64,000 bases of DNA from NCBI GenBank assembly GCA_903936705.1, contig CAIZWN010000079.1, positions 62,001-126,000 on the forward strand. The letters are read 5' to 3'. How positions within the stretch are numbered: the stretch's first letter is position 1; each line of letters starts with the position of its first letter. The notes under the pieces are model-generated. The model did no database searches. It was not told the DNA's origin and saw only the letters and a program-made list of their open reading frames with translations. Position numbers and translations under genes: made by a program. Shown piece after piece: positions 2,964 through 45,704 of the stretch. The stretch is from an uncultured Myxococcales bacterium (GTDB lineage Bacteria; Myxococcota_A; UBA9042; DTJE01).

Positions 2964-3500
2964 CTATACGCGCTCAACCTGGCTGAAGTCCAACTCAACC
3001 GGAGTGGCCCGGCCGAAGATGGTGACCAGAACGCGGACCTTCCGCTTCTCGGTCTTGACTTCCTCGATAATCCCCGAGAAGTTGAGGAACGGCCCATCCT
3101 TGATCCGGACCGCCATGCCCTCTTCGAACTGCACCTCGACCACCGGACGAACAGGACCCTGATCCATCTGGTGTCGGATTTGCTCGACTTCCTTCTCGGA
3201 CAGGGGCCGCGGCCCCCGATCATTCCCCACAAAGCCCGTAACATTCGGGCGGTGGCGAATGTAATGATGCGTCTCGTCGTTCAGGTCCATCTGGACCAGG
3301 ATATAGCCCGGAAAAAACTTCCGCCGGCCACCGGGTCGCTTCTTCTCGCCCTCGGGAGCAGGAGGCTCCATCGGAACTATGATCTCGCCGATATGCTCGG
3401 CGACAGCAGGCCCCTCGCGCTTCATCTGGTCAAGGATATCTGCCTTGACCTTCTGCTCGAAACCCGAGTAGGTGTGGACCACGTACCACTTCATTGGCAT
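2964..3500 (-). CDS. nusG: Transcription termination/antitermination factor NusG
   Basis: NusG binds RNA polymerase, suppresses pausing and links it to Rho or the ribosome. The product has the NGN domain (MKWYVVHTYSGFEQKVKADI, then PGYILVQMDLNDETHHYIR) and a C-terminal KOW domain (EEGMAVRIKDGPFLNFSGII). Translation from the ATG at 3500 gives 178 residues starting MPMKWYVVHTYSG, matching the family start; an ATG two codons later is equally possible. An upstream in-frame start at 3533 would overlap secE and is less likely. The spacing to secE is 13 bases, so the two are co-transcribed. Confidence 0.97.
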   Translation of the reverse strand: MPMKWYVVHTYSGFEQKVKADILDQMKREGPAVAEHIGEIIVPMEPPAPEGEKKRPGGRRKFFPGYILVQMDLNDETHHYIRHRPNVTGFVGNDRGPRPLSEKEVEQIRHQMDQGPVRPVVEVQFEEGMAVRIKDGPFLNFSGIIEEVKTEKRKVRVLVTIFGRATPVELDFSQVERV

Positions 3501-5949: not shown

Positions 5950-6032
5950 TGGAGGGGGGAGGATTCGAACCTCCGAAGCCTACTGGCGGCAGATTTACAG
6001 TCTGATCCCTTTGACCACTCGGGAACCCCTCC
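5950..6032 (-). tRNA. tRNA-Tyr (anticodon GTA)
   Basis: An 83-base class II tRNA with a long variable arm: acceptor GGAGGGG/CCCCTCC, anticodon stem CAGA/TCTG with loop CTGTAAA, and T-loop TTCGAAT. Discriminator A is present and CCA is not encoded. Confidence 0.96.
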
Positions 6033-6056
6033 GCACCGCAAACAGCGACAACCGGC

Positions 6057-6132
6057 TGGAGCTGGCGACGGGAATCGAACCCACAACCGCCTGATTACAA
6101 ATCAGGTGCTCTGCCGACTGAGCTACGCCAGC
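6057..6132 (-). tRNA. tRNA-Thr (anticodon TGT)
   Basis: Acceptor GCTGGCG/CGCCAGC, anticodon stem CCTGA/TCAGG with loop TTTGTAA, and T-loop TTCGATT form a full cloverleaf. A CCA triplet follows the discriminator at 6057-6059 and may be encoded or chance. This is the first gene after the strong promoter at 6165-6193. Confidence 0.96.
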
Positions 6133-19542: not shown

Positions 19543-20616
19543 CTAAAAAGATCGACAGCAGCGCGTGCCCAGGTAGTACCCGTCGAGCTGGAGTCCGAAC
19601 TTCTTCCGCGCCGAGGCGCGCATCCATTCGGCCTTGTCGCTGAAAGCTGCCCCGCGAGCCACCCGATACTCGGCCTCAGGAACCAGCCAGGCAGATCCGT
19701 CCACAGGCGCGCCGGTGTAGTCTTCGTGATAGAAGTCCTGCACCCATTCCCAGACGTTTCCGGCCATGTCGGCGGCACCCGATTGGCTGTTGCCGGCCGG
19801 TTTCGAACCGACAGGAAAGACGTTTGCGGTGCCGCATCCGACCCCGGAACCATCATTCGGGTCCATGACGGCAAGATCACAGGTTGGAGTCTCCTCGCCC
19901 CACGGATAGGTGCGCCCGTCGGAACCGACGGCGGCAAGCTCCCACTCGGCCTCGGTGCAAAGTCGCTTGCCTGCCCACCGGCAGAATGACGACGCCTGTT
20001 CCCAGGAGATGCAGTTGATCGGGTGCTGATCCATTCCTGCCAGGCCGTAGGTACACAGGGACGAACTTGCATTCGGCAACGAGCACGCGCCGTCAACGTG
20101 GCACCGCGCCCACAAGCCGGCCGTGACCTCGTTCTGGTCGATCTCGAAGGCAGGCACGGACACTGCGTGAGACGGCTTTTCATCGGTCCCGCAGGCCGCA
20201 GCCGCAGCCCCGGCCCCGCACCCCATCGCGAACGAAGCCGCCGCAACCGGCACCATCGCTCCGCAGTCGGCAGTGCATTGCACTACCTCGGGGGGCACGT
20301 CCAGCGGCAGGTCCGCGGCTGTATCTGATGGCGCGTCCACCAATGGCGGGACGTCAGCGGCGTCAATGGGAAGGTCAACGAACATGTCCGTCGAGGAATC
20401 ACCGGGCACTTCCGTCAGAAAATCAACAGGGGTATCGATCATGAAGTCGCCTGGAGCATCCGCAGGCAAGGTTTCCATGACGTCGTAAACGGAATCGGCT
20501 GGCAGGTCGACCGCATCGATCCCCTGGTCGCCCGACCCTTCTGCCGAGCCGCATGAGAACGACATCGCCGCGGCCAGAACCAGCAAGAATTGGAGCCTAT
20601 GAATACCGGTCGGCAT
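19543..20616 (-). CDS. FGE-sulfatase (SUMF1-like) domain lipoprotein
   Basis: The 357-residue product starts with a lipoprotein signal (MPTGIHRLQFLLVLAAAMSFSC). A long acidic Asp/Pro/Val spacer (about residues 25-125) precedes a formylglycine-generating-enzyme-like domain: VAAASFAMGCG, EIDQNEVTAGLW, HPINCISWEQASSFCRWAGKRLCTEAEWE, ADMAGNVWEWVQDFYH and the C-terminal YYLGTRCCRSF. The region that holds the two catalytic cysteines in true FGE reads EWMRASARKK here, without Cys, so formylglycine formation is unlikely. The ATG at 20616 has AAGGTGG upstream. It lies 103 bases after the truncated transporter gene. Function unknown, probably surface-exposed. Confidence 0.85.
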   Translation of the reverse strand: MPTGIHRLQFLLVLAAAMSFSCGSAEGSGDQGIDAVDLPADSVYDVMETLPADAPGDFMIDTPVDFLTEVPGDSSTDMFVDLPIDAADVPPLVDAPSDTAADLPLDVPPEVVQCTADCGAMVPVAAASFAMGCGAGAAAAACGTDEKPSHAVSVPAFEIDQNEVTAGLWARCHVDGACSLPNASSSLCTYGLAGMDQHPINCISWEQASSFCRWAGKRLCTEAEWELAAVGSDGRTYPWGEETPTCDLAVMDPNDGSGVGCGTANVFPVGSKPAGNSQSGAADMAGNVWEWVQDFYHEDYTGAPVDGSAWLVPEAEYRVARGAAFSDKAEWMRASARKKFGLQLDGYYLGTRCCRSF

Positions 20617-20719
20617 GACTGCCACCTTTTTCGGATATCCCATGTCCGAAAGTGTGCATTCCACGGCATTGGAAGGCAACCAAGTACGGCGCAAGTGGCG
20701 GACAGGGAACGGGGACACC

Positions 20720-21590: not shown

Positions 21591-21663
21591 CTGTAGGTAA
21601 ATCTTGATTTTTTTGGTGTTGAGAATAGACAGCCGAAAAGCTCAGGCCTCATTTAGGATTACG

Positions 21664-24600
21664 ATGAATTCAATGGCCAGATTTCTCCCGCTTGTCATTG
21701 TCCTTGGCGTCCTTGCATCCTGCGGGCCGGAATCAAGCCCGGTGGTTTCGGAGATAGGCGACGATCTTGCCTTGGACAAACTAGCCGACCCGGCTGACGT
21801 GATGCCTGATACCGTAGATGTCGCCGATCTTTTTGCCGAGTCCATGCCGGACCTCTACGCGCCGGAAACACCCGAGGCCGTGGAAGTCGTTGATGTCACG
21901 GATGTTCATTCGGACGAGGGGCCGACGAACGATGGGCCCGACGAAACGACGCCTCCAGACTGCGTACAGACACCATCAGTCTGCGACGACGACAATGCGT
22001 GCACGGTGGACTCGTGCAATCCGATCCTAGGGTGCGTCAACTCTCCACTGACTGGGACCGGATGCGATGACGCCGATGCATGCACCCTTGGAGACATTTG
22101 CCAGGCCGGTAAATGCGTTGCCGCGGAAACGATTTCCTGCATCGACACCGACCCTTGCACCGACGACCTGTGCGATCCGACGACCGGCTGCTACCACACG
22201 AAGAACCACGAGATCTGCGACGACGGAAACGCCTGCACCAAGGATGACATATGCACCGCAGGCACGTGCTCGGGAACGCCCGTGACGGAACTGTGCAACT
22301 GCAACGACATCCTGGACTGCGTGACGTTGGAGGACGGCAACGCCTGCAACGGCACGCTGGTTTGCCTGAATCATCAGTGTATTGTCGATCCTGCCACGAT
22401 CGTCATCTGTGATACGTCGAAGGACCCGACATGCAAGAGGACCTTCTGCAACGCCGGCACCGGTTTGTGCGGCCAGCATGACGCACCGGACAACAGCGGT
22501 TGCGACGATGCGGATGCCTGCACGACCGGCGACCGTTGCCTGGGCGGCTCGTGCACCGGAGGCCCGCCACCGAACTGCAACGACGGCAACGACTGCACCA
22601 CCGACAGCTGCGCCATCGCGACCGGGTGCTCCAGTCTCGACAACAATGACGTCTGCCTGGCGGCCGAGTGCGTGAGCAACGTCTACTATGCAGCAGCCAC
22701 CTGCGCGACAGGAACGTGCCCCGTACAGGAGGTCACCGACTGCGCCAGCAACAAGGCATGCGTTACGGACTCCTGCGATGCTGCGACCGGTTGCTCTCAC
22801 GTCGTGAAGCCCAACTACTGCCTGATTGACGGCGCATGCGTCCTGGAGGGGGCCACCTTCCCGACCGATCCCTGCCGGGTCTGCACGGCTTTGATTTCCT
22901 TCAGCGACTGGACTGTCGCCGGGGACGGGTCCTCGTGTGGCGCCGGACGCGCGTGCCTTGACGGCAGATGCCTGGGCCCGCTGATCACCGAGTTCATGGC
23001 CGTCAATCGCGACACCACCAAGGACGAAGATGGTGACACCAGCGACTGGATCGAGATCTACAACCCCGCAGGCGTGCCGCTGTCGTTGCTGGGCTACCAC
23101 CTGACGGACGACAAGGCCAGGCCGGGCAAGTGGATTTTCCCGGACGTATCGATCCCTCCCAACGCCTACCTCGTAGTATTCGCCTCCGGCAAGAACCGCA
23201 TGGACCCGGCTGGCGTATTGCACACGAACTTCAAGCTGGGATCCGAGGGCGAGTATCTGGCGTTGTCCAGTCCCAACTATCTGGTGGTCCAGGAGTTCCC
23301 GATCTTCCCTGCGCAAGCCCCTGACGTTTCGTACGGCATCGCTGTTTCGGTCGCCAGAGCCCCGTTCGTGACAACGGGTAACTCGGCACGCTATTTCGTG
23401 GCCCTTGGTGCCAACCCGCCCTTTGACTGGGCCGGTTCGGCTTTCGATGACACCGGGACCGGCTGGGAAACCGGCTTGACCGGGATAGGCTTCGACTTTC
23501 CATCCCAATACCAGCCGCCCGCATCCGGCGACGCACTTGGTACGCCGATTGCTGATTCGGTGGCAGACTGGTCCACGACCGGCATCCAGGGCGCAAACGG
23601 CTGGACCTACGGGTATTACGACCGGACCAACGACCCGGACCACGTGTACTCGGCCGACGCCTTCATCCCGTTCCCTCACGACGGCAGCGGCTTCGGCCCT
23701 ACCGACTTCTGGACAGGATCGTCCTATGAATGGTTCCAGGGCGATCCTCCGTGGACAGCCATAGGCAGCGAGTCCGTCCACCCGAACGGCGAGAACAACA
23801 TCAGCGAGCACTGGGTGATCCGGCGATACACAACCGAGATCGCAGGTCCGCTGGTCGTGGAATGGCATATCGGGCGCAACAACCTGAACGGCGATGGCGT
23901 CACGGGTTACGTCTTCCACCAGGGAACGCTTGTGGACTCGATTGCAATTGCCGGAAGCGACTCGGTGGGCGCCACGCGCCTGCTGGTATTGCCCGAAGTC
24001 ATGATTGGCGACACGATTGATTTCGCCCTGGGTCCCACGGGTCCCGGCGGCCAGCCCGAGGATTGGTCAGACGGGTCGGTTTTGACCTCTGCCGTCTGGC
24101 CCATGCCCAACCTTGAAAGCCAGATCGCAACGAGCGTCGATGCAACCATGTTCGGGGTGACGCCCGGCATGTACGTCAGGATCGCCTTTGACAACGAGTC
24201 GCCGGTGCCTCTGAACCGGCTGTGGCTGCGCATGAAGTACAACGACGGCTTCCTGGCATATCTGAACGGGTCTGCCATCGCGTCCGCCAATGCACCGGAG
24301 ATACCCACGTGGAATGCAACGGCCACGGCGAACCGCTCGGTCGCCGCGGCACAGGAATTCGAAATCTTCGACGCCCGCAGCAACATCAACCTCCTGGCGG
24401 CTGGCCGGAACACGCTGGCCATCCACGGTTTCAACGTAGCCGCGGACAGCCCCACGTTCCTGGTGCTGCCGGAACTGGAGGGGCGCCTGGTCACCTATGA
24501 TGCAGCGTCGGTCCGCTATTACAGCAAGCCCACGCCAGGTGCGGACAACGATGATGCCACTGGTACGCTCGGCCCCATAATGGAGCACCTGACCCCGGCC

Positions 24601-26361
24601 GGCAGCGCGGCGTCGGGCCAGGAGATAGTAGTTTCGACAAGAGCCTTCCCGACCAGCGCCGAGGTTGCCGGCGCCGTCCTGATCTACCGGGTGATGTTCG
24701 GCCCAGAAGTGTCAGTTCCCATGACAGACGCCGGCAACGGCATTTTCAGCGCAGCGATTCCTGCCGATGTCGCCGCACCCGGCCAGATGGTTCGCTGGTA
24801 CATCCTGGGCAGCGACGTGAACGGCCAGACAGGCCGGACACCGATCTTCCCCGACCCGCTGGATTCGGAACAGTACTTCGGCACCATCATCGATGACCCA
24901 ACGATAGTCAGCAACCTGCCCGTAATTCATTGGTTCATCGAGAACCCGGCAGCCGCCAACACGCGGACAGGTACGCGCAGCTCGCTCTTCTTCGCTGGCG
25001 AGTTCTACGACAACGTGAAATTCAACCTGCATGGCCAGAGCACCTCGGGCTCGTCATTCCCGAAGAAAAGCTACAACGTTGACTTCAACTCCGACCACCG
25101 GTTCCGCCTTTCTACGGACTTTAGACGCATGAAGGACATCAAGCTGCTGACCAACTATGCCGACAAGTCCAAGCTGCGAAACACCCTGGGGTACGAGACC
25201 TTCAGGAACGCGGGATCTGCCTATCACCTTGCGTTCCCGATACGAGTCCAGCGCAATGGCACGTTCTTCTCGGTCCAGGACTTTGTGGAGGACGCGGACG
25301 ACCGCTGGCTGGAACGACTGGGACTGGATCCCGAAAACGCGTTGTACAAGCAGTACGACGGTCTGTACAACGCGGCCCTTGGCGAGAAGAAGACCCGCGA
25401 GTACGAGGACAATTCGGACCTCGCGTCATTCATCGCCAATCTTGACCTGACCGGGGATGCCCTGCGCAATTTCATCTACGACAACGTGAACTTGGCGGCC
25501 ATGGCGAACTTCTATGCTGGACTGACAATCACGTCGGACAAGGATTGCTGCCACAAGAATTTCTATGCATACCGCGACACCAACGGGACCGGCGAGTGGT
25601 GGTACCTGCCCTGGGATCTGGACCTGACGTTCGGCCGCAACTGGATCCAGTCGGTCAACTACTTCGACGATAACCTATACCCGCAGAACCGGCTGTTCGG
25701 CGGGGGCGGCAACAAGCTGACCTCGATCCTGTATGCGATGCCCGAGTTCAGTCAGATGTACGTGCGGCGACTGCGCACGTTGATGGACCAACTGCAGCAG
25801 CCTCCCGAAACGCCCCAGGCTGACCTGAAATTCGAGAAGCGCATCGACGAACTGGTGACGTTGATCGGCGCCGACGGCGCGGCCGACTATGCGGCCTGGC
25901 CCAAGTGGGGCCTGGACCAGACAATGGAGCAGGCCGCCGGATTGATGAAGACGAACTACATGGCGCCTCGAAGGGTTTTCCTCTTCGAGACGAAGACTGC
26001 AGACGGAACCATCCCTTCGGCACAGGAACATCCCATCATCCTCTTCGGCGAATTTGATCTCTCGCCCGAACGCCCCGACGAGGCCTATTTCACTCTTGAT
26101 AACCAGAACGCCTTTGCCGTGGACCTTTCGGGCTGGCAGGTATCGGGCGACATTTCCATCACGCTGAAGCCGGGTACGGTTATTCCAGCCTTGGGCACGC
26201 TGGTTGTGTCCCCCGACGTCGTCACCTTCCGCAAACGGGCTCTTCCTCCGACTGGCGGGCAAGGGCTGTTCGTGCAGGGCAACTACGTAGGCGTGATCAG
26301 CCAGTTCGAATCCCTTACCCTGCTGGACGATGCCGGGAACACTGTATCGTGGGCATTGTAA
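21664..26361 (+). CDS. Large lipoprotein: Cys-rich repeats, lamin-tail domain, CotH kinase-like domain
   Basis: The 1565-residue protein starts MNSMARFLPLVIVLGVLASC, a clear lipobox (LASC), followed by an acidic Asp/Pro spacer. Residues about 80-430 hold cysteine-rich repeats of the type CDDxNACTxDxC...GC. A lamin-tail domain (ITEFMAVNRD, SDWIEIYNP, LGYHLTDD, IPPNAYLVVFAS) begins near 440. A middle region of beta-rich type follows. A CotH-like atypical kinase domain spans about 1115-1420, with FPKKSYNVDFN, MKDIKLLTNYADKSKLRN, VQDFVEDADDRW and the metal-binding-type WDLDLTFGRN near 1315. A second lamin-tail-like fold (VDLSGWQVSGD, VIPALGTLVVSPD) ends the protein. The start has AGGA upstream. 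The gene ends base to base with mfd on the other strand. Kinase activity is not shown; spore-coat-type CotH proteins elsewhere phosphorylate proteins. Confidence 0.85.
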   Translation: MNSMARFLPLVIVLGVLASCGPESSPVVSEIGDDLALDKLADPADVMPDTVDVADLFAESMPDLYAPETPEAVEVVDVTDVHSDEGPTNDGPDETTPPDCVQTPSVCDDDNACTVDSCNPILGCVNSPLTGTGCDDADACTLGDICQAGKCVAAETISCIDTDPCTDDLCDPTTGCYHTKNHEICDDGNACTKDDICTAGTCSGTPVTELCNCNDILDCVTLEDGNACNGTLVCLNHQCIVDPATIVICDTSKDPTCKRTFCNAGTGLCGQHDAPDNSGCDDADACTTGDRCLGGSCTGGPPPNCNDGNDCTTDSCAIATGCSSLDNNDVCLAAECVSNVYYAAATCATGTCPVQEVTDCASNKACVTDSCDAATGCSHVVKPNYCLIDGACVLEGATFPTDPCRVCTALISFSDWTVAGDGSSCGAGRACLDGRCLGPLITEFMAVNRDTTKDEDGDTSDWIEIYNPAGVPLSLLGYHLTDDKARPGKWIFPDVSIPPNAYLVVFASGKNRMDPAGVLHTNFKLGSEGEYLALSSPNYLVVQEFPIFPAQAPDVSYGIAVSVARAPFVTTGNSARYFVALGANPPFDWAGSAFDDTGTGWETGLTGIGFDFPSQYQPPASGDALGTPIADSVADWSTTGIQGANGWTYGYYDRTNDPDHVYSADAFIPFPHDGSGFGPTDFWTGSSYEWFQGDPPWTAIGSESVHPNGENNISEHWVIRRYTTEIAGPLVVEWHIGRNNLNGDGVTGYVFHQGTLVDSIAIAGSDSVGATRLLVLPEVMIGDTIDFALGPTGPGGQPEDWSDGSVLTSAVWPMPNLESQIATSVDATMFGVTPGMYVRIAFDNESPVPLNRLWLRMKYNDGFLAYLNGSAIASANAPEIPTWNATATANRSVAAAQEFEIFDARSNINLLAAGRNTLAIHGFNVAADSPTFLVLPELEGRLVTYDAASVRYYSKPTPGADNDDATGTLGPIMEHLTPAGSAASGQEIVVSTRAFPTSAEVAGAVLIYRVMFGPEVSVPMTDAGNGIFSAAIPADVAAPGQMVRWYILGSDVNGQTGRTPIFPDPLDSEQYFGTIIDDPTIVSNLPVIHWFIENPAAANTRTGTRSSLFFAGEFYDNVKFNLHGQSTSGSSFPKKSYNVDFNSDHRFRLSTDFRRMKDIKLLTNYADKSKLRNTLGYETFRNAGSAYHLAFPIRVQRNGTFFSVQDFVEDADDRWLERLGLDPENALYKQYDGLYNAALGEKKTREYEDNSDLASFIANLDLTGDALRNFIYDNVNLAAMANFYAGLTITSDKDCCHKNFYAYRDTNGTGEWWYLPWDLDLTFGRNWIQSVNYFDDNLYPQNRLFGGGGNKLTSILYAMPEFSQMYVRRLRTLMDQLQQPPETPQADLKFEKRIDELVTLIGADGAADYAAWPKWGLDQTMEQAAGLMKTNYMAPRRVFLFETKTADGTIPSAQEHPIILFGEFDLSPERPDEAYFTLDNQNAFAVDLSGWQVSGDISITLKPGTVIPALGTLVVSPDVVTFRKRALPPTGGQGLFVQGNYVGVISQFESLTLLDDAGNTVSWAL

Positions 26362-34827: not shown

Positions 34828-34948
34828 ATCTTCGGGCCTCCCTGACACCCCGGTGCGTCATTCTACTCGCGGACGCAGGCAGGGGCCAACGAGACGACCG
34901 GGTGGAAGGAAATGGGCCGAGCCGGTGACGGCGCGGATGGGAAAAGCC

Positions 34949-37900
34949 TCATGGCATGGGCTTCAGACAGCGGGCCCCGAGGAGCGCGAAGCGGCTGCCC
35001 GGCGAGACGCGGTCGCGATCCGACGACCGCATGCGCGACGCGTCGCCGTCGAAACCGCCGCCACGGAGAACGCGGTAGACGCCGGTGGGCGAAACCCACG
35101 CGCTGCCATCCATGGGCGCTCCGGTGTAATTTGGGTGGTACCAATCCTCGACCCACTCATACACGTTTCCTGCCATATCCAACGCCCCGCTCCAGGACAC
35201 GCCAGCCGTCTTTGACCCTTCAGCAAGAGTCCCTCCTGAACTGCACCCATACCCTGCCGTCGTTCCGGCCTCGTTGAAGACCGCAGTAGTATTCGCGCAC
35301 GTCGGCGCAGGAGTATCTCCCCATGGGTACTTCCGGTGCGTCGGACCAGTCGCCGCGTATTCCCACTCAGCCTCGGACGGCCGACGGCCACCCAGCCACG
35401 TGCATACCGCTCCCGCCTGGGCCCATGTCAGCCCATTCTGAGGATGAGTCGAACGGCCATTAGCCGAGGTGTTCGTCCCCTGCGTCATAGGGAAGCCATC
35501 CGCACTTGGTGGCGTACAAGTCCCGGGCAACGCCGCCTGGCAAGCTTCGTACTGAAGGACGGTCACCTCGTACTTCCCCATCAGGTAACCGGACGCGAAC
35601 GTCACCGAATGATTTGGGTCCTCTTCGGTGCTACGTGGAGATTCGGTCGATGGCGATCCCATCGTGAACGAACCCGCCGGAACGTGGACCCACACATCCC
35701 ACTGCTTCCAGCCAGTGGTATCAACGTTCGCGTATTCGCAATGTTCCTGGGAATTGCACGTGGCAATGTAGCCAGACACGGTCGGGCAGGCGATGCCGCC
35801 GCATGTTGACCTCGAAGTACGCAGCCCCAGGTGGTACATGCGGGCGCCCGAGATGAAGCGGAGGCCACGGTCGGCAGCCCGGATGCGCCCGGCGCTTCCG
35901 GACCAGCCCCCGCCACGAAGCACCGGGCCCGAGCCCGACGTGGCGCCCGTTGGATCCGTCACCGTCCCTGGATACGTCCCGTACAAATCCCCAGTCCACT
36001 CCCAAACGTTCCCTAGCATGTCGTACAGACCCCACGCGTTCGGCGTCTTGCCCTTAACTGCCTGAGTCTTACTGGCAGAGTTCCCATAGAACCAGGCAAT
36101 CGTGTCAAGGACCGTGTTTGGCTGTTCGTATCCAATCAACGTACTTGTCCCGTTGTATGTCCCGGTCGTCGTCCCTGCCCTCGCTGCATACTCCCACTCC
36201 GATTCCGTTGGCAGGCGGTAGCCCGTGCAGGTGAGTCCCGCAAACGTTACCCCGGTACAGGTGTATCCCGACACCCCGGGAGTTCCCGTGCACCCTGTTA
36301 ACGTGTAGCACTGCGTCAACCCCTGGTTTGACGACAGTTGGTTGCAGTACGCTATTGAGTCCCACCAGGACACCTTTTCAACCGGGCAGTCGCTCCCGCA
36401 TGTCGAGAAGGACGACGGGTTGTTACCCATCAATGCCTGCCATTCACCCTGCGTTACCTCTGTCGCCTTCAGGCAGAATGACTTGGAGATCGTTACCTGA
36501 TGCTCGGTCTCATCGGCGTAACGCCCTGGTTCCGTTGTCGGAGACCCCATCGTAAACATCCCGGACGGAACTAAAACGTATCCATCGGGGCATCCGCCAA
36601 TTCCATTGCACGCACCTGCCGTGCACCCGTACTGGCACGTCTGCGCCAAGGCCCCCATGTTCCCGCAACTGTTGTACCAATAAACGCTCCCGCCTGAACA
36701 TGCCTTGTGGTCGTTCGCGTTGCAGCACGTACCAGAAACGCACCCGCCGCCGGTGCCACAGGATGTGCCATCGGTCGCGTTGCTCCATGCGGTCGAACCA
36801 TTGGTCGTCGTGCATACCTTGCACGCGTCCGTCCCGTTCGCGGCGCCCTCTGCATAACATGTCCCGGCAATCAGGCAATTCCCTGACTGCAACGCACTGC
36901 TGCATCCCGTCGCCGCCGCGCAGGCGTCGGTGGTGCAGGCTCTTCCGTCATTGCACGACGATACCGCGCCGCCCAACGTGCACTGTCCGCCAGCGCAGGT
37001 CAGAGGCGCCTTCCAATCCAAGCCGTTGCAGGAAGCGGCCATACACTGACCGCCGTCCGCGATGCTGCTCCACGCGTCCGTGCCGCTTGCGGTAACGCAG
37101 TTCTGGCATGTGTTGACCGGGTTGGGCTGGGCCTCGCCATAACATGTCCCGCCGATCAGGCAATAGCTGTCCTGCAATGCGTTCGCGCAACCCCCCGCGC
37201 TGCACGAGTCGGTCGTGCAAGCCTTGCTGTCGTCGCACGACGAAACCGCACCGCCCACGGTGCATTGCCCAGATGAGCATGTGCGTGGTGCCGTCCAGTT
37301 CAATGCCGTGCAGGACGCAGCCTGGCATTGCGTCCCGTCTGTCACGCTGCCCCACGTGGTCGTGCCCTGTGCCGTCTTGCACGCCTGGCATGCATTTCCG
37401 ACGTTGATCGTGCCTTCGGCATAGCACGTCCCTCCGATCAGGCAGTTTCCCGACTGTATCGTCGCGCTGCATCCAGTCACCGCCGCGCACGCATCGGTCG
37501 TGCACGTCTTGCCGTCGTCGCACGACTGTACCGCACCGCCTGCCGTGCACTGACCAGAGAAGCACGTCTTCGCGGCAATCCACGTCATGCCCGCGCATGT
37601 GCTTGACTGGCATTGCGCCCCGTCGTCGCGATTGCTGTAAGCCGTGACGCTCTTCGAAGGAATACACGCCTGGCAGGCGTTGCCGAGGTTCGCGGTGCCC
37701 TCGGCAATGCAGGCACCTCCGATCACACAAAATCCGACGATCACGCCGTTACTGCAGCTTCCGGTAGCGGGATTGCACATGTCGGTCGTGCACGCTAGGC
37801 CGTCGTTACATCTTAACGGATAGGAACATCCACCTGTAAGGGGATTGCACGTGTCGGTTGTACAGAGGTCGCCGTCACCGCACTTCACGGAATGGACGCA

Positions 37901-40900
37901 CCCACCTGAGTAATGGTTACACGAATCGGTTGTACAGGGGTCGCCGTCGTCACAGCCGTTTACGCTATGTAGGCAATCGCCGGACACGATGTCACACCAA
38001 TCATTCGTACATTGGTTCCCGTCGTCGCAGGACTGGGGCTCGTTTCGACAACCGGATCCTGAACTGCATGCATCCGAGGTACACGCTTTCCCGTCATCGC
38101 ACGACTGCGTCCCGCCGCCTACCGAGCATGCCCCTGTCAGGCACGACTTCGCTGACGTGAACTGCAGCAGGTTGCACGTACCGGCGCCACATGCGGTCCC
38201 GTCCGTCGCGTTGCTCCACTCGGAAGTGCTGGGCGTCGATGCGCACACCTTGCACGCGTTGACCGGGTTCAACTGGCCCTCGGCCCAGCACGTCCCGGCG
38301 ATCAGGCACTGCCCGGCCTGCAGCACGTTACCGCACCCCTTTACCGCGTCGCACGTGTCGTTGGTGCACGCCTTCCCGTCGTCGCAGCCAGTGGTCGCTC
38401 CACCCGTCGTACACAGCCCCGACTGGCACATCTTGGCGGCAGACCACGTCAGCCCTGCACATGCACTGGCCAGACACTGGATCCCGTTCGCCAGGGGACT
38501 CCAGGACGACGTACTCGTGGCCACGGTGCACGCCTCGCAGGCGTTGCCTGGGTTCAAAGCGCCCCCGGCACGGCAGATCCCTCCGATCAGGCAGTTCCCC
38601 GCCTGAAGGGTGTTGCTGCAACCGGTCGCCGCGCCACACGCATCCGTCGTGCACGTCTTCGCGTCGTCGCACGATGACGTCCCGCCGCCACCCGTGCACT
38701 GCCCGGCCGCGCACGTCCTGGGCGTCGTCCACGTCAGTCCCGTGCAAGACCCCGCCAGACACTGTGTCCCGTCGGTCACGCTGCTCCACGCCGACGCGCT
38801 GCGCGTCGCATCGCATACCTGGCACGCGTTGGATGGATTCGGCTGCCCGTTTGCCCAACACGTCCCGTCGATCAGGCAGTTCCCCGCCGCCAGCGTATTG
38901 CTGCAGCCTCCCGAGGCGCTGCACGCGTCCGCCGTACATCCCTTCCCGTCGTCGCACGATGCAATCCCGCCGCCCACCGTGCATTGCGCGGCCGAACACG
39001 ACCGCGGCGCCGTCCACGTCAGCCCCGCACACGATCCTGCCGCGCACTGCGTACCGTTCGACAGGCCCGTCCACGACGTTGTCGCGCTGGACGGAGTGCA
39101 CACGTTGCACGCGTTCGACGGGTTCAACTGCCCCGACGCATAGCATGTCCCCGACACCAGGCAGAAGCCCGCCGAAAGCGTGCTGGTGCACCCCGTCGTC
39201 GCATCGCACACGTCCGCCGTGCACTCCTTTCCATCGTCGCAGTTGCTGGTGACCAGACTGCCGCACTGCCCTGTTTGGCAGGTCCTGGCATGCGACCACA
39301 CCAGCCCGTCGCAGGACGACGCAACGCACGTCACGCCGTCGGTCAGATTGCTCCAGCCCAGGGTCGCCCGCGCGATGTCGCATTTCTGGCAGCCGTTCGT
39401 CGGGTGCATCTGGCCGTTCGTCCGGCACGTCCCGTCGATCAGGCAGTTGCCAGCCACCAGCGCGTTCCCGCAACCCGTCGCAGCCGTGCAGGTGTCAGCC
39501 GTGCAGGTCTTGCCGTCGTCGCAGTTCGATAGCGCGCCGCCCCCGGTGCACTGCCCCGTAACGCATGTCCTTGCCGCGTTCCACGAAAGCCCGGTGCAGG
39601 TACTTGCCAGACACACCGTCCCGTCACCGGCGTTCGACCACGACGTCGTGCTGGTACCAGGCGTGCAGACCAGGCATGGGTTGGTCGGGTTCGCCTGCGC
39701 CTCGGCAAAGCACTGCCCGTCGATGAGGCATGTCGCGGCCTTCAACGCCGTGCTGCACCCCGCCGCCACGTCGCACACGTCCGTCGTGCACGTCTTGCCG
39801 TCGTCGCACGACTGCAGCGCGCCGCCTCCCGAACACTGCCCCGACGCGCACGTCCGGGGCCTGGTCCACGAAAGTCCCACACAGGCCCCGGCAAGGCACT
39901 GAGTACCATCGTCCCGCCACGACCATGCCGTTGCGCTGGATCCCGTCTGGCACAACTGGCACGCGTTGCCGGGATTCGCCTGCGCCTGGGCATAGCACGT
40001 TCCCGAAATCAGGCACTGCCCCGCCTGCAGCACGTTGCTGCATCCGGTTGCCGATGCGCATGCATCCGTGGTGCACGCCTTGCCGTCATCGCACGACTGC
40101 GTAGCACCGCCAGCAGTGCACTGCCCGGTCACGCACGTCTTCTGGGTCGTGAATGTCAGGCCAGTGCATGACGACGACGCACACTGCGTCGCGTCCGCCA
40201 CGTTCGTCCACGCCAAGGTTCCCTGCGCCGATGTGCATGCCTGGCACACGTTCGCAGGGTTTGCCTGCCCGTCCGCAAAACACGTTGCCCCGATCAGACA
40301 ACGCTGCGCCTGCAGCGTGTTCCCACACCCCGCGACCGGATCGCACGAATCGGTCGTGCAGGTCCTGCCGTCGTCGCACGACCGCACGGCACCACCAGCG
40401 GTGCACTGCCCCGAAACGCAGGTTCTGGACGCCGTCCACGACAAACCGGTACACGTCCCCGCAGCGCACTGCGCCCCGTCTTCGCGAGTCGTCCACGCCG
40501 TCGTGCTGCTGGCAGTCACGCACGCCTGGCATCCGTTGCCCGGGTTCGCCTGCCCTTCCCCGTAACACACCCCGCCGATCAGGCACTGCCCCTGCTTCAG
40601 GACGTTGCCGCACCCCGTGCCAACTGCGCAGGTGTCCGTCGTACAAGTCTTGCCGTCATCGCACGACTGCAAGGTACCGCCGACACTGCACGACCCGTAA
40701 AGGCAGGTCATGCTGGATGTGAAGTCCAGTGCCGAACACGACGACGCAACGCACTGCGTCCCGTCCGCGATGCTGGTCCAAGAGGACGTCGCCTTTGCGA
40801 CGTCGCACAACTGGCACGCGCTGGCAGGATTCGTCTGGCCCACGCCAACGCACACCCCGTCGATAAGGCAGTTCCCCGCCACAAGCGAGTTGCCGCACCC

Positions 40901-43900
40901 GGTCGCAGCACTGCACGCATCCGTCGTGCACGCCTTCCCGTCGTCACAGTTCCGGCTGCCGCCCCCTCCGGTGCACTCACCCCCCACGCACGACTGCGCA
41001 GACGTGAAGACCTTGCCAGCGCAGTTCCCGGATCCGCACACCGTCCCGTCCAGCACATCCGTCCAGGCCAGTGCGTCCACAACCGGAGCGCACACATGGC
41101 ACGCGTTCCCGATGCTGGCCTCGCCGGCAACCAAGCATGTCCCGCCGATCAGACAGTTTCCCGCCTGCACCAGATTGCTGCACCCCGTGGCCGGGACGCA
41201 CGCGTCGGTCGTGCACGCCTTCGAGTCCTCGCATGAAACCGGCGTCCCCGCAGCCCCGCACCAGCCGGACTCGCACGTCCGCCGCGGCGTCCACTGCAGT
41301 CCCGCGCACCCACTGGCCACGCACTCGGTCCCGTCAACCGCGTCCTTCCAGGCGCCCGGGCTGCCCACGGCGTCGCAAGTCTGGCAGGGATTTTCAGGGT
41401 TCTTGGCATGGTCCGCGTAACACGCCCCGTCGATCCGGCAGGACCCGGCCTGAAGGACGTTGCTGCACCCCGTGGCGTTACTGCACGCGTCAGCCGTGCA
41501 CGACAACCCGTCGTCACACCCCTGCAGTTCGCCTCCACCGGCGCACTGCCCGACGTCGCACGTCCGCGGCCTGGTCCACTCCATGCCCAGGCACGAAGGC
41601 GCCCCGCAAGGCGTGCCGGGAACCGCGTCCGTCCAGCCCGTCGCCGACACCGTCGCCGCACACGATCGGCACACGCTGGACGGGTCAGCCTGGCCATCCG
41701 TCGCACAGTCTCCACCAATCGCGCAGTACCCGGTCTCGACTTCGTGGCCGCACCCCGTTGTCGCGGAACACTCGTCCTGCGTGCAGGAAACCCCGTCATC
41801 GCACCACTCGGTCTGCCCACCACCGGAGCATGTCCCGGATTCGCACGTTTTTGCAGCCGTCCACGTGGTCACCGCACACGACCCCGACACGCACACAGTC
41901 TTGTTGGCCACCGCCGTCCAGGCCGTCGCATCGAAGGTCGATGCACACGCCTCGCATGGATTCGCGGGATTCAACCCGTTGTCATCCCAGCATGCCCCGG
42001 CGATCAGGCACATTCCGGCCGCAACCTGGTGCCCGCACCCGGTTTCCTCGTCGCACGAGTCGGCCGTGCACTCGATACCGTCATCGCATGGCTGTACCTG
42101 GCCGTCGCCCGTACAGGCGCCCGACACGCACGACCGGGGCGTCGTCCACACCAGCTCGGCGCACGACCCGGACAGGCACCACGCGCCGTCCTCGGCGTCA
42201 CTCCACGCCGACGAACTTTCCGATGCGCGACACACCTGACAAGGGTCTGCTGGATCCGCCTGACCCGCATCGAAACACGCTCCGGCGATCAGGCAGGCCC
42301 CCTGCTGCAGCACGCTGCCACACCCAGTCGTGGCATCGCACGTGTCCGTGGTGCACGACTTCCCGTCGTCGCACCCCTGCACCTGCCCGCCATCCCGGCA
42401 CTGCCCCCCGGCACACGTCTTTTTCGCCCGCCACGTCAGCCCCTCGCAGGCGCTGGCCAGGCACTCCGCCCCGTCCTTGGCGGTGCTCCACGTCGTAACG
42501 CCATTGCCGGGGGTGCACACCTCGCATCCGTTCGCAGGGTTGGCCTGGTCGGTCGCAAAACACTGGCCGGCGATCAGGCAGAAGCCAGGCTTCAGAACGC
42601 TGCTGCACCCCGTGAATGCATTACACGCGTCGGTCGTGCACGAAAGCCCGTCGTCGCAGTTCCCAGCCGCCCCAGCCGGGCACACTCCCGACAGGCATTC
42701 CCTGCCTTCCGTCCAGGAAAGCCCGGCACACGACGGCATCTTGCAAACGGTCCCGTCATCCAGTTCGGACCACTCCTGCGTGCCGCGCATGATGTCGCAC
42801 ACCTTGCACGCGTTCAGCGGATTCGGCTGGCCGTCGTACCGACACACCCCGCCTATCAGGCAATAGCCGTCCTGCAGCGCACTGGAACAGCCCCCGTCCG
42901 GATTGCATCCGTCGATCGTGCATGCCCGCGCATCGTCGCAGTTCTGGGTGGCTCCGCCCCCGGTGCACGTGCCCTGCAGGCAGGTCTCGGGCTGGGTCCA
43001 CCAGGATCCGACGCACGACCCGCTGGCGCACCGCACGCCGTCCCCAAGCACCGTCCAGGCCACGTCGCTGGCCAGCGGGTTGCACGCCTCGCACGCGTTC
43101 AAGGGATTCGTGTTCCAGTCCGACCGGCACACCCCAAGGATCAGGCACTTGCCTGGCAACACCGGGTTCATGCACCCGACTGACGGCTCGCACTCGTCGG
43201 CCGTGCAGGAAATCCCGTCGTCGCAGTCCTGCATCCCGCCGCCCGCCGTGCACTGCCCCGAAACGCAGGTCTTGCCCTGCTTCCACACTCCTTCCGTGCA
43301 CGTAGAAGGGTCGCACACGACCCCGTCAGTGGCAGCGCTCCACACGGTAGGACCAGCAACGTGCGAACACACCTGGCACGCATTGCCCGGGTCCGGCTGG
43401 CCTTCGCCACGGCACTCGCCCCCGACAAGACACCACCCCTCCAGCACCTCGTGCTGGCACCCCTTGGCCGCACTGCAAGTGTCGGACGTGCACTCCAGCC
43501 TGTCGTCGCACGACCGGCTGGTGCTGGCACCAGTGCACTCACCCGAATCGCAACTCTTCGCTGTCGTGTAAACCTCGCCCTGACACGACCCTGGTCCGCA
43601 GGGGTCTCCGTCTTCGCGGACGGTCCACAACTCCTTGTTCAGTTCTGTCCGGCACCACTCGCACAGTCTCGACGGGTTTTCATCGCCCTCGCCACGACAC
43701 GTTCCGTCGATCAGGCAGAAGGCGGGCTGCAGCGGATTCGTACAGCCACCAATGCCGTCGCACACGTCATCGGTGCACGCCTGCCCGTCCGAACACGAGA
43801 AGGACGTTCCCTTGCAACCGGCGTCACCGGTTCCACCCGCCGCGCACGAGTCGTTCTTTGTGCAGGCGTCCTGGTCGTCGCACAGCTTGCCCACGACGTA

Positions 43901-44392
43901 CGTCCAGACAACAGTGGCCTTTGTCGGATCGCAGGTCAGGCACTTGCCCTGGTTCGCCCCCGACGCCACGCACGACCCGTTGATCAGGCACCAATCGGCC
44001 TGCAGAACATGCGTGCACCCGGTCAACCCGCAAACATCGGTAGTGCACGGAATCTGGTCATCGCATTCCGAAACATCCCAGCACGTCCGTGGAACGTCCC
44101 CCTTGTCCACGTCGAACGCCGACACGTCGGAAAAGCAGGTCAAACAGATCTCGCTGTCCATGCGTGCGTCGGCACAGGCCCCGCAAACGTCCTCGTCGTC
44201 GTTCGCGTCGAACCGATCGAGGTCATCCACATCGAACGGATCCGGGATATCGAGGTCTGCCGCGTCTGCCCCGTCCACCGCGACCTCGTCCCCGGTATCG
44301 CGCGCAACATCAGGAGCTGCAGGCATTGTGGGTATGGTCCAGCACCCGGCAATCGCCGTCGCCAGAACCATCACCAGTAAAACGGTTCGCAT
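34949..44392 (-). CDS. Giant lipoprotein: ~25 tandem 12-Cys repeats plus two FGE-like domains
   Basis: The 3147-residue protein begins MRTVLLVMVLATAIAGC, a textbook lipobox (IAGC), then an acidic Asp-rich spacer to about residue 105. Residues about 110-2550 are tandem units of about 95 residues, each with twelve cysteines, pattern CDDGKxCTTDxC..TGC..xLxxGxCLIxGxC, then NPxNxCxxC, W, DGTxC, C.GLxW, TC..GQC. The first units are more diverged than the middle ones. A short-unit cassette interrupts the array near 37780-38060. Two FGE-sulfatase-like domains follow, about 2600-2865 (VPSGMFTMGSP, RLPTESEWEYAAR, YDMLGNVWEWTGD) and 2900-3147 (VPAGSFTMGSP, RRPSEAEWEYAA, LDMAGNVYEWVEDWYH). Neither has the catalytic Cys pair. 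ATG 44413 is an alternative start. It directly follows the PEGA gene. Function unknown; most likely an extracellular disulfide-rich rod bearing binding domains. Confidence 0.88.
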   Translation of the reverse strand: MRTVLLVMVLATAIAGCWTIPTMPAAPDVARDTGDEVAVDGADAADLDIPDPFDVDDLDRFDANDDEDVCGACADARMDSEICLTCFSDVSAFDVDKGDVPRTCWDVSECDDQIPCTTDVCGLTGCTHVLQADWCLINGSCVASGANQGKCLTCDPTKATVVWTYVVGKLCDDQDACTKNDSCAAGGTGDAGCKGTSFSCSDGQACTDDVCDGIGGCTNPLQPAFCLIDGTCRGEGDENPSRLCEWCRTELNKELWTVREDGDPCGPGSCQGEVYTTAKSCDSGECTGASTSRSCDDRLECTSDTCSAAKGCQHEVLEGWCLVGGECRGEGQPDPGNACQVCSHVAGPTVWSAATDGVVCDPSTCTEGVWKQGKTCVSGQCTAGGGMQDCDDGISCTADECEPSVGCMNPVLPGKCLILGVCRSDWNTNPLNACEACNPLASDVAWTVLGDGVRCASGSCVGSWWTQPETCLQGTCTGGGATQNCDDARACTIDGCNPDGGCSSALQDGYCLIGGVCRYDGQPNPLNACKVCDIMRGTQEWSELDDGTVCKMPSCAGLSWTEGRECLSGVCPAGAAGNCDDGLSCTTDACNAFTGCSSVLKPGFCLIAGQCFATDQANPANGCEVCTPGNGVTTWSTAKDGAECLASACEGLTWRAKKTCAGGQCRDGGQVQGCDDGKSCTTDTCDATTGCGSVLQQGACLIAGACFDAGQADPADPCQVCRASESSSAWSDAEDGAWCLSGSCAELVWTTPRSCVSGACTGDGQVQPCDDGIECTADSCDEETGCGHQVAAGMCLIAGACWDDNGLNPANPCEACASTFDATAWTAVANKTVCVSGSCAVTTWTAAKTCESGTCSGGGQTEWCDDGVSCTQDECSATTGCGHEVETGYCAIGGDCATDGQADPSSVCRSCAATVSATGWTDAVPGTPCGAPSCLGMEWTRPRTCDVGQCAGGGELQGCDDGLSCTADACSNATGCSNVLQAGSCRIDGACYADHAKNPENPCQTCDAVGSPGAWKDAVDGTECVASGCAGLQWTPRRTCESGWCGAAGTPVSCEDSKACTTDACVPATGCSNLVQAGNCLIGGTCLVAGEASIGNACHVCAPVVDALAWTDVLDGTVCGSGNCAGKVFTSAQSCVGGECTGGGGSRNCDDGKACTTDACSAATGCGNSLVAGNCLIDGVCVGVGQTNPASACQLCDVAKATSSWTSIADGTQCVASSCSALDFTSSMTCLYGSCSVGGTLQSCDDGKTCTTDTCAVGTGCGNVLKQGQCLIGGVCYGEGQANPGNGCQACVTASSTTAWTTREDGAQCAAGTCTGLSWTASRTCVSGQCTAGGAVRSCDDGRTCTTDSCDPVAGCGNTLQAQRCLIGATCFADGQANPANVCQACTSAQGTLAWTNVADATQCASSSCTGLTFTTQKTCVTGQCTAGGATQSCDDGKACTTDACASATGCSNVLQAGQCLISGTCYAQAQANPGNACQLCQTGSSATAWSWRDDGTQCLAGACVGLSWTRPRTCASGQCSGGGALQSCDDGKTCTTDVCDVAAGCSTALKAATCLIDGQCFAEAQANPTNPCLVCTPGTSTTSWSNAGDGTVCLASTCTGLSWNAARTCVTGQCTGGGALSNCDDGKTCTADTCTAATGCGNALVAGNCLIDGTCRTNGQMHPTNGCQKCDIARATLGWSNLTDGVTCVASSCDGLVWSHARTCQTGQCGSLVTSNCDDGKECTADVCDATTGCTSTLSAGFCLVSGTCYASGQLNPSNACNVCTPSSATTSWTGLSNGTQCAAGSCAGLTWTAPRSCSAAQCTVGGGIASCDDGKGCTADACSASGGCSNTLAAGNCLIDGTCWANGQPNPSNACQVCDATRSASAWSSVTDGTQCLAGSCTGLTWTTPRTCAAGQCTGGGGTSSCDDAKTCTTDACGAATGCSNTLQAGNCLIGGICRAGGALNPGNACEACTVATSTSSWSPLANGIQCLASACAGLTWSAAKMCQSGLCTTGGATTGCDDGKACTNDTCDAVKGCGNVLQAGQCLIAGTCWAEGQLNPVNACKVCASTPSTSEWSNATDGTACGAGTCNLLQFTSAKSCLTGACSVGGGTQSCDDGKACTSDACSSGSGCRNEPQSCDDGNQCTNDWCDIVSGDCLHSVNGCDDGDPCTTDSCNHYSGGCVHSVKCGDGDLCTTDTCNPLTGGCSYPLRCNDGLACTTDMCNPATGSCSNGVIVGFCVIGGACIAEGTANLGNACQACIPSKSVTAYSNRDDGAQCQSSTCAGMTWIAAKTCFSGQCTAGGAVQSCDDGKTCTTDACAAVTGCSATIQSGNCLIGGTCYAEGTINVGNACQACKTAQGTTTWGSVTDGTQCQAASCTALNWTAPRTCSSGQCTVGGAVSSCDDSKACTTDSCSAGGCANALQDSYCLIGGTCYGEAQPNPVNTCQNCVTASGTDAWSSIADGGQCMAASCNGLDWKAPLTCAGGQCTLGGAVSSCNDGRACTTDACAAATGCSSALQSGNCLIAGTCYAEGAANGTDACKVCTTTNGSTAWSNATDGTSCGTGGGCVSGTCCNANDHKACSGGSVYWYNSCGNMGALAQTCQYGCTAGACNGIGGCPDGYVLVPSGMFTMGSPTTEPGRYADETEHQVTISKSFCLKATEVTQGEWQALMGNNPSSFSTCGSDCPVEKVSWWDSIAYCNQLSSNQGLTQCYTLTGCTGTPGVSGYTCTGVTFAGLTCTGYRLPTESEWEYAARAGTTTGTYNGTSTLIGYEQPNTVLDTIAWFYGNSASKTQAVKGKTPNAWGLYDMLGNVWEWTGDLYGTYPGTVTDPTGATSGSGPVLRGGGWSGSAGRIRAADRGLRFISGARMYHLGLRTSRSTCGGIACPTVSGYIATCNSQEHCEYANVDTTGWKQWDVWVHVPAGSFTMGSPSTESPRSTEEDPNHSVTFASGYLMGKYEVTVLQYEACQAALPGTCTPPSADGFPMTQGTNTSANGRSTHPQNGLTWAQAGAVCTWLGGRRPSEAEWEYAATGPTHRKYPWGDTPAPTCANTTAVFNEAGTTAGYGCSSGGTLAEGSKTAGVSWSGALDMAGNVYEWVEDWYHPNYTGAPMDGSAWVSPTGVYRVLRGGGFDGDASRMRSSDRDRVSPGSRFALLGARCLKPMP
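36735..44065 (-). repeat. Tandem 285-base coding repeat array (~25 units)
   Basis: Within the giant lipoprotein gene, units of about 285 bases (95 codons) follow head to tail. Aligning the protein at each CDDG gives about 25 long units plus one composite of short units. Units in the middle and toward the 3' half are closest to one another, suggesting recent duplication or gene conversion. Copy number may vary between strains and assemblies. Confidence 0.85.
37780..38060 (-). repeat. Short-unit cassette inside the repeat array
   Basis: Here the 95-residue unit is replaced by four or five short units of about 25 residues (CDDGNQCTNDWCD, CDDGDPCTTDSCN, CGDGDLCTTDTCN, CNDGLACTTDMCN). The DNA looks less GC-rich than the flanking units. 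The short type resembles the repeats in the CotH/lamin-tail lipoprotein at 21664-26361. Confidence 0.6.
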
Positions 44393-44417: not shown

Positions 44418-45704
44418 CTACCACCGCACCAGCGCCGACAACCCGGCCCCGCCGGGACCACCCGGTGCCACCGTGACCTTGGACTCGGGAAGGAAGTACA
44501 GCACCAGCCCCGACGCAAGAGCGGCGCCCCCCAGGGTCAGGCACGTCAACGCCGCAATGCGCTTGGTCGTGGCGCTGTCCCACCAGGGTTGTACGTTCTT
44601 GCGGTATTCATCCTGGACGCTGGCAGAGTTCGGGTCCAGTCTGTCATAGGCGCTGGACATCTGTTTGAAGTCCCGGTAGGCCAGCCCGTACGACACTGAA
44701 CCCGCCGCCACAAGTGCAATCCCGACGCCCATGGCACTCCACGCTCCGATCCGCCTTGGGGACATGCCTCGCTTGGCGGCCACCGTCTGAACGGGTGGCG
44801 GCACTTCGATGGCGACCGGTATCAGATCGGCACGCACCAACAGCGTCTGCCCCACGGCCAGCGTGACTTCCTGGTCCAGCGGCTTGTGCCCCGCGGCCTC
44901 GGCGCGAACCAGATGCGACCCGGCCTTGGTGCGAACCTCCTGCGGAGCAATACCCGCAAAAAGGCCGTCCACAAACACCGAAGCATCCTTCGTCCGGCTT
45001 TCAACCCGCAGCACTGTCTGCGTCGGCACCAACACCAGGGCAACCGACACCGGAGCCCCCTGCGCGACCACGACCGAGGACTGCGCAGGCTGGTACCCGG
45101 CGGCCTCGGCCAGAACTATGTGGCTGCCCGGAGTGACCCAGGCAGCATGCAGCAGCAACGTATCCGGAGCCTTCCGATCAAGGTATATCCGGGCGTCCGC
45201 AGGCGTCGAAGTGACCTCCAGTTTGCCCAGCGTCCTGCCCAGGACCGCGTCCAGTTTCTGCAGCAGATCGCGGGCCTCACCGCGTTCCTTGTCGTTACGA
45301 GCCACGGTCAGGTACCGGACCGCCCACGGGTACGCACGGGCAGGGTCCTGGACCGCATCCGTCAGGACCGTGGCGATGTTGTACAGGTAGGACGGATTCG
45401 GGTTCAGGGCATACGCACGCTGGAACCCGTCGACGGTCTCGACGTACCTGCCAGCCTGCGCGTCCTTCACCGCCTGCGCCGCCAGGGCCTTGCCCTCGGC
45501 CACCGCACCAACCGAGTCCTGGGCACTTGCAAACAAGGGCGCAAGAATGAACGTCAACGCGGCAAGCGCGGCAAGGCACCCCCGCAACAGCACCTTCGGC
45601 GCCGCGTCCCAGTGGCCATCCAGCTGCGCCGTGGAAGCATCGCAACAACAGCGCGTGACGTCGCCGTCGAACTTGCAACCACGGGTTGCGCTGATTCGAA
45701 CCAT
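44418..45704 (-). CDS. TPR/PEGA-domain membrane protein
   Basis: The 428-residue protein has a hydrophobic export segment (LAALAALTFILAPLFASAQ) after an unusually long, Cys-containing N-region. A TPR-like segment follows (AQAGRYVETVDGFQRAYALNPNPSYLYNIATVL). Two PEGA domains come next, near residues 160-225 (GKLEVTSTPADARIYLD) and 230-295 (LRVESRTKDASVFVDG, AGSHLVRAEAAGHKPL). Two transmembrane helices (IGAWSAMGVGIALVAAGSVSYG and IAALTCLTLGGAALASGLVLYF) end the protein. PEGA domains are cell-surface beta modules common in myxobacteria. GGAGG lies 11 bases before the ATG. The stop is 25 bases before the giant lipoprotein start, so the pair is probably one operon. Confidence 0.82.
   Translation of the reverse strand: MVRISATRGCKFDGDVTRCCCDASTAQLDGHWDAAPKVLLRGCLAALAALTFILAPLFASAQDSVGAVAEGKALAAQAVKDAQAGRYVETVDGFQRAYALNPNPSYLYNIATVLTDAVQDPARAYPWAVRYLTVARNDKERGEARDLLQKLDAVLGRTLGKLEVTSTPADARIYLDRKAPDTLLLHAAWVTPGSHIVLAEAAGYQPAQSSVVVAQGAPVSVALVLVPTQTVLRVESRTKDASVFVDGLFAGIAPQEVRTKAGSHLVRAEAAGHKPLDQEVTLAVGQTLLVRADLIPVAIEVPPPVQTVAAKRGMSPRRIGAWSAMGVGIALVAAGSVSYGLAYRDFKQMSSAYDRLDPNSASVQDEYRKNVQPWWDSATTKRIAALTCLTLGGAALASGLVLYFLPESKVTVAPGGPGGAGLSALVRW

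Follow-up and report, generated by a model that had tools for sequence, protein, structure and literature searches.

What does a bacterium do with a protein of 3147 residues, 346 of them cysteines, that ends in two domains resembling formylglycine-generating enzyme (FGE)? The question is raised by an open reading frame in the stretch of DNA analyzed here (the window, 64,000 nucleotides from an uncultured Myxococcales bacterium), whose source genome is a MAG of 84 contigs and 4.85 Mb. A first-pass annotation described a long lipoprotein of about 25 twelve-cysteine repeats, proposed to form a disulfide rod displaying two binding or enzymatic heads, in an architecture that it did not recognize. 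The architecture is borne out in the main, but that annotation lacked the feature that bears most on function, namely that both heads carry variable repeats (VRs) of diversity-generating retroelements (DGRs). We consider it very probable that the protein is a Cys-array lipoprotein with two DGR-diversified binding heads, reached by homing in trans.

Organization of the locus

The gene is translated from the minus strand, from an ATG at 44392 to a TGA at 34949, and a TTG at 44518 provides an alternative, longer start. Its parts and its upstream neighbor are as follows, with core counts giving the positions changed relative to the template repeat.

44418..45704, minus: PEGA-domain protein gene, directly upstream of the lipoprotein gene with a 25-bp gap
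34949..44392, minus: ORF of the giant lipoprotein, one open frame with an IAGC lipobox and two FGE domains
44342..44392, minus: signal peptide with lipobox IAGC (Cys17), from the sequence
44078..44341, minus: Asp-rich spacer, aa 18-105, from the sequence (22 Asp in 88 residues)
43796..44077, minus: divergent N-terminal Cys unit, aa 106-199
38102..43795, minus: 20 tandem 12-Cys units of 94-95 aa each, aa 200-2097
37811..38101, minus: four short 4-Cys CTDC repeats splitting the array, aa 2098-2194
36956..37810, minus: three more 12-Cys units, aa 2195-2479
36596..36955, minus: truncated final unit (aa 2480-2550) and short Cys-rich cap, together aa 2480-2599; the cap also precedes the FGE domain in the C5 and C28 paralogs
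35798..36595, minus: head 1 (FGE1), FGE/C-type-lectin-fold domain, type a (Pfam; PDB match 2y3c, TvpA)
35806..35935, minus: VR1, related to the C5 template repeat; core, 23/27 A and 16/81 other bases changed
34952..35692, minus: head 2 (FGE2), FGE/C-type-lectin-fold domain, type b (Pfam; PDB matches PvdO, FGE and TvpA)
34954..35083, minus: VR2, remote target of the C2 template repeat; core, 22/27 A and 2/85 other bases changed

The N-terminus (LLVMVLATAIAGC) has the signal peptide and lipobox of a bacterial lipoprotein, and the protein is predicted to be lipidated and exposed at the surface. Pfam identifies two FGE-sulfatase domains at the C-terminus (E=9.9e-90). The long lipoprotein of the first-pass annotation is thus present as described, with its lipobox, its Asp-rich spacer and its two C-terminal FGE-fold domains, and chance is excluded as the source of this architecture.

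The PEGA gene is a probable operon partner. A PEGA-domain gene lies upstream of Cys-unit/FGE lipoprotein genes at four loci (the window and contigs C28, C5 and C2; L062, L063 and L087 are among them), which suggests that its product is a conserved envelope partner of these lipoproteins. Elsewhere in the window, positions 21604-26361 (plus strand) encode a 1585-aa surface-type protein with CotH kinase, lamin-tail and CTDC repeat segments.

The cysteine array

Complete 12-Cys units number 23 rather than about 25, with 20 in tandem and three following the interruption by the four CTDC repeats, which have four cysteines and 24-25 aa each. The complete units are 94-96 aa long and all 12 cysteines are invariant across the 23, giving about 276 conserved cysteines. 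Identity between units averages 47% at the amino acid level and about 60% in DNA, and no exact DNA repeat is longer than 32 bp; the array is therefore old, and an assembly stutter is ruled out.

The first quarter or so of each unit, including its first four cysteines, corresponds to the Dicty_CTDC repeat (PF00526), which matches 24 stretches of the protein (E=6e-56; 186 bits against a cut-off of 27). The remaining eight cysteines matched no Pfam, NCBIfam or PDB entry, and a profile search of PDB with the 12-Cys unit gave no match, such that only the N-terminal part of the unit is a known Pfam repeat. AlphaFold2 modeled three units confidently as an all-beta structure (mean pLDDT 92, pTM 0.48). 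In Foldseek and VIA searches with this model, the top-ranking matches were the Entamoeba Gal/GalNAc lectin, Pfs25 and TNFR-like proteins; with E >= 1.8e-3 and Z <= 2.5 they do not allow a fold to be assigned, and the missing match is no proof of a new one. Weak as they are, these matches recall other disulfide-stapled extracellular or Cys-rich stalk proteins. Both the model and the matches are compatible with the rod first proposed, and the Cys units would form an extended, disulfide-stapled stalk.

Four DGR cassettes in the source genome

In a DGR, a reverse transcriptase (RT) together with Avd copies the RNA of a template repeat (TR) inaccurately at its adenines, and the resulting cDNA takes the place of a VR beside a 3′ homing site (PMC3240598, PMC8144416). 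A search of the source genome for reverse transcriptases found five. Four are small and have the DGR-type motifs IG[NA]LTSQ and YMDD; the fifth, on C46, was considered as a further DGR but has the QGGVISP motif of group II intron RTs. Each of the four adjoins an FGE gene, an HRDC-domain protein gene and avd, and has a TR directly 3′ of the RT, so the same MAG contains four complete cassettes comprising FGE target, HRDC protein, Avd, RT and TR. The two Avd proteins tested, those on C5 and C2, score 87 and 93 bits, above the curated cut-off of 80 bits for the NCBIfam family 'diversity-generating retroelement protein Avd', and DGR-type RT and Avd thus occur together in this genome.

The TR beside the RT is near-identical to the VR of the adjacent target, giving cis TR/VR pairs on C5, C2, C68 and C12; within the cores the two copies differ at 0/81 (C5) and 0/85 (C2) non-adenine positions. 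The C5 template reads NRVNRGGSWNNDARNARAANRNNNDPGNRNNNLGLR and the C2 template reads NRVIRGGSFNNDASNLRSSNRNNDTPDNRNANNGARCL. Both consist mostly of AAC/AAT codons, each of which can come to encode as many as 15 different residues without ever turning into a stop, corresponding to about 2-6e15 combinations per template. Action in trans across contigs depends on the MAG binning of C2 and C5 with C79, which is supported by tetranucleotide composition (correlation 0.97-0.99 for the C2, C5, C68 and C28 stretches).

Variable repeats in the two heads

Closely related FGE paralogs in the genome are about 80-90% identical to one another, but only about 32-56% over some 25 residues that follow an RGG motif near the C-terminal end, which is the usual location of a DGR VR in C-type-lectin-fold proteins. 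Judged by sequence against 2y3c, the VRs of both heads of the giant lipoprotein lie inside the C-type-lectin-fold domain, and the identity of the two heads to those of the cassettes drops from 87-89% outside the VR to 36-40% within it.

VR2 differs from the C2 template over 134 bp at 25 of 34 adenines and at five of 100 other bases (p=5.5e-15), and within a 112-bp core at 22 of 27 adenines and at two of 85 other bases (2.4%; p=1.7e-16). Adenines account for 25 of its 30 mismatches (83%), and for 22 of 24 in the core, above the threshold of at least 75% used for DGR VRs (Roux 2021, PMC8144416). Outside VR2 adenines are not more variable than other bases (12% versus 15%), and no significant adenine bias is seen in FGE paralogs far from any template (e.g. 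L092 and L093). In the remainder of head 2, 14.7% of the DNA positions differ from the C2 target (p=3e-4 for the core being lower). Because the core is closer to the template at non-adenine sites than the flanks are to the C2 target, it appears to have been re-copied after the two genes diverged, and adenine-directed retrohoming in trans from the C2 cassette is the best explanation.

VR1 presents a different picture. Its best template partner is the C5 TR, and head 1 shares 89% identity with the C5 head beyond the VR and 36% within it. Adenines are enriched among its mismatches (p=1.9e-10) but account for only 27 of 49 (55%), below the 75% threshold; the 16 changes at 81 non-adenine core positions exceed the difference of the head 1 flanks (11.9%); and there is a 3-nt insertion together with an altered 3′ end, which is where other VRs have the sequence marking their homing site. 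On these grounds VR1 may be a diverged or decayed VR, or may have been written from another template that has been lost or lies outside the assembly; no separate, unlinked template for VR1 was found in the genome assembly. Head 1 looks to have descended from a C5-type template by a copying older than that of head 2.

A further difference concerns the sequence 3′ of the VRs. On C2 and C68 the VR is followed by a hairpin-forming element of about 80 bp that occurs practically nowhere else in the genome (L087 ~6025-6096 and L084 ~3057-3128, almost only 3′ of the two type-b VRs). It is a candidate homing hairpin, longer than those known for phage DGRs. No inverted repeat of at least 7 nt was found 3′ of VR2 in positions 34840-35000 of the window, and the flank there looks like a deletion of the element. 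A hairpin or cruciform just 3′ of the VR is required for efficient homing in phage BPP-1 and has been proposed as general, but hairpin-independent homing occurs in BPP-1 at low efficiency (PMC3240598). We therefore take the hairpin to affect the efficiency of homing without being strictly required, and retain VR2 as a DGR VR, though by this analogy it may now be a poor target.

Binding heads or enzymes

TvpA, a Treponema DGR variable protein, ranks first among the PDB matches of head 1 (2y3c, E=2.4e-37), and head 2 matches PvdO best, together with FGE and TvpA (2y3c, E=1.1e-13); the AlphaFold2 model of head 2 is of low confidence (pLDDT 58). In formylglycine-generating enzyme the copper-binding cysteine pair lies in the segment after RGGS[FY]. 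The corresponding segments of the two heads, RGGGWSGSAGRIRAADR and RGGGFDGDASRMRSSDR, contain no cysteine, and the VR of each head sits where FGE enzymes have their catalytic cysteines. The earlier choice between binding and enzymatic heads can thus be narrowed: since the VRs replace the catalytic segment and neither head has the cysteines, a binding function is much more likely as judged from sequence.

Other targets and related proteins

The genome contains 32 FGE matches. At least four strictly A-biased remote VRs lie beyond the cis targets (VR2, C68:254, C58 and C22), and several others have diverged. The four heads of a 1972-aa protein on C28 alternate as a-b-a-b and match, in turn, the C5, C2, C5 and C2 templates. 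Remote targets are thus at least as numerous as cassettes, and a giant multi-head lipoprotein is among them. Within the window, a 391-aa FGE protein (19543-20718, minus strand) has a tail differing from the C12 template at 13/25 adenines and 33/100 other bases, and is probably not a current DGR target.

The view that the architecture is an unfamiliar one holds for the giant form but not for its components. Smaller proteins with a lipobox, an Asp-rich linker, Cys units and an FGE head are encoded on C5, C28 and C49 and in the relatives G002 and G009; the N-terminal part of the unit is a Pfam repeat; and giant Cys-rich lipoproteins that lack FGE domains are present in relatives. Scanning found related Cys units in 52 of 53 genomes, and close copies of the full 12-Cys unit, among the genomes scanned, only in the source genome, its sister G002 (same genus) and G009.

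The same arrangement of genes is found in DGR cassettes elsewhere in the class. The family member G003 combines a single cassette and template with ten or more additional VR places; in five of these, 68-91% of the mismatches fall at adenines and no more than six changes are non-adenine. This genome has 58 FGE domains in 3.1 Mb (L192-L205) and a truncated second copy of the template at L198. FGE genes with TR-like tails are also present on three IMG/VR contigs (L169, L170 and L173), of which L169 and L170 encode a DGR-like RT and L173 has two extra tail copies downstream of the FGE domain.

A model for the lipoprotein and its alternatives

We propose that a surface-type lipoprotein presents two tandem FGE/C-type-lectin-fold binding heads on a long, disulfide-rich array of 12-Cys units, with a DGR variable repeat at the tip of each head. 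Avd and RT from a cassette elsewhere in the genome would copy the template RNA, placing random bases opposite adenines, and the cDNA would replace the variable repeat in trans; the C2 template would serve head 2, whereas head 1 would derive from a C5-type template. The heads may bind a shifting set of ligands, for instance phage, prey or neighbor surfaces, and the cell may keep altering what the protein binds, if the heads still diversify. A more elaborate version, in which two templates acting in trans diversify the two heads independently on a rod of about 2400 residues, would make the protein a combinatorial, bispecific binder that rewrites itself, a design shared with the four-headed C28 protein; we put this a little short of an even chance. 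From the pairing of the heads with different templates it follows that adenine sites should be polymorphic at two places in a single protein, each independently of the other.

The strongest competitor, well short of even odds in our estimate but substantial, is that both heads were once DGR VRs that homing no longer reaches, leaving a fixed adhesin today. The missing hairpin behind VR2, with a 3′ flank resembling a deletion junction, and the drift of VR1 at non-adenine sites are both expected if this is so; against it, the two changes at 85 non-adenine sites in VR2, compared with 14.7% divergence in the rest of the domain, point to late copying, and BPP-1 homing without a hairpin, though inefficient, does occur (PMC3240598). 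That the variable tails arose without retrohoming, by ordinary diversifying selection or by recombination among FGE paralogs, seems to us extremely improbable: 32 FGE matches make recombination feasible, but the changes follow the adenines of a separate, non-target template beside an RT, and beyond the VR adenine sites show no greater variability.

Two further alternatives concern function rather than variation. Were the heads FGE-, PvdO- or EgtB-like enzymes with the array merely a tether, the Pfam FGE-sulfatase assignment and the position of PvdO as the best PDB match of head 2 would be accounted for. We regard this as very unlikely given that the FGE-cysteine segment is a hypervariable repeat that lacks those cysteines in both heads, that the paralogs diverge sharply in just that segment, and that head 1 is nearest to a DGR variable protein. 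A compact shell with metal or redox activity in place of a rod, with the heads secondary, would suit the conserved cysteines of the 23 units and the lack of a confident fold match, but it is unlikely: the repeated all-beta model is confident but low in pTM, which is what an extended chain should give, and the context of a secreted lipoprotein would favor disulfides. We thus favor an array that carries DGR-diversified binding heads.

Comparison with known systems

No papers naming DGRs together with Myxococcota or Myxococcales were found in the literature searched. Metagenome surveys of DGRs miss targets that are far from the RT (PMC8144416), and with remote targets at least matching cassettes in number here, such surveys undercount the reach of DGRs in this lineage. 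Remote DGR targets have been described in cyanobacteria (PMC7517822), and Treponema denticola has one DGR with up to seven remote FGE-fold target genes per genome, many encoding lipoproteins (PMC4891356). The T. denticola targets are likewise FGE-sulfatase/C-type-lectin-fold proteins, among them TvpA, the best PDB match of head 1 (2y3c; PMC3167528), but those strains have one template per genome (PMC4891356), and the solved TvpA chain, of 294 aa, has a single head and lacks a Cys-repeat rod.

Thiohalocapsa PB-PSB1 is similar in having several DGR classes per genome, remote targets acted on in trans and some multi-VR targets, whereas its targets are tied to STAND/NACHT or other conflict systems rather than to giant Cys-repeat lipoproteins; the portions of that report available to us do not describe a single protein with two VRs keyed to the templates of two cassettes (PMC10907252).

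Among Cys-rich proteins, the Dictyostelium CTDC repeat (PF00526) resembles the unit in its first four cysteines and differs in leaving the other eight unmatched. The giant lipoprotein-type proteins of G011 (C23) and G005 (C98) (L184 and L185; 3453-3559 aa, about 450 cysteines) have loosely similar CTDC-type units but differ in sharing another C-terminal domain and in having no FGE heads.

The Legionella DGR study reportedly concerned a single head, with the target within the cassette. LdtA of that system is, like the protein here, a DGR-diversified surface lipoprotein (PMC3657778, as cited in PMC8144416). DGR-diversified lipoproteins, remote targets, and trans and multi-VR targets are thus already known, and what is new here is that a predicted, disulfide-rich rod of giant size carries two heads, each keyed to a different template, in Myxococcales-type bacteria.
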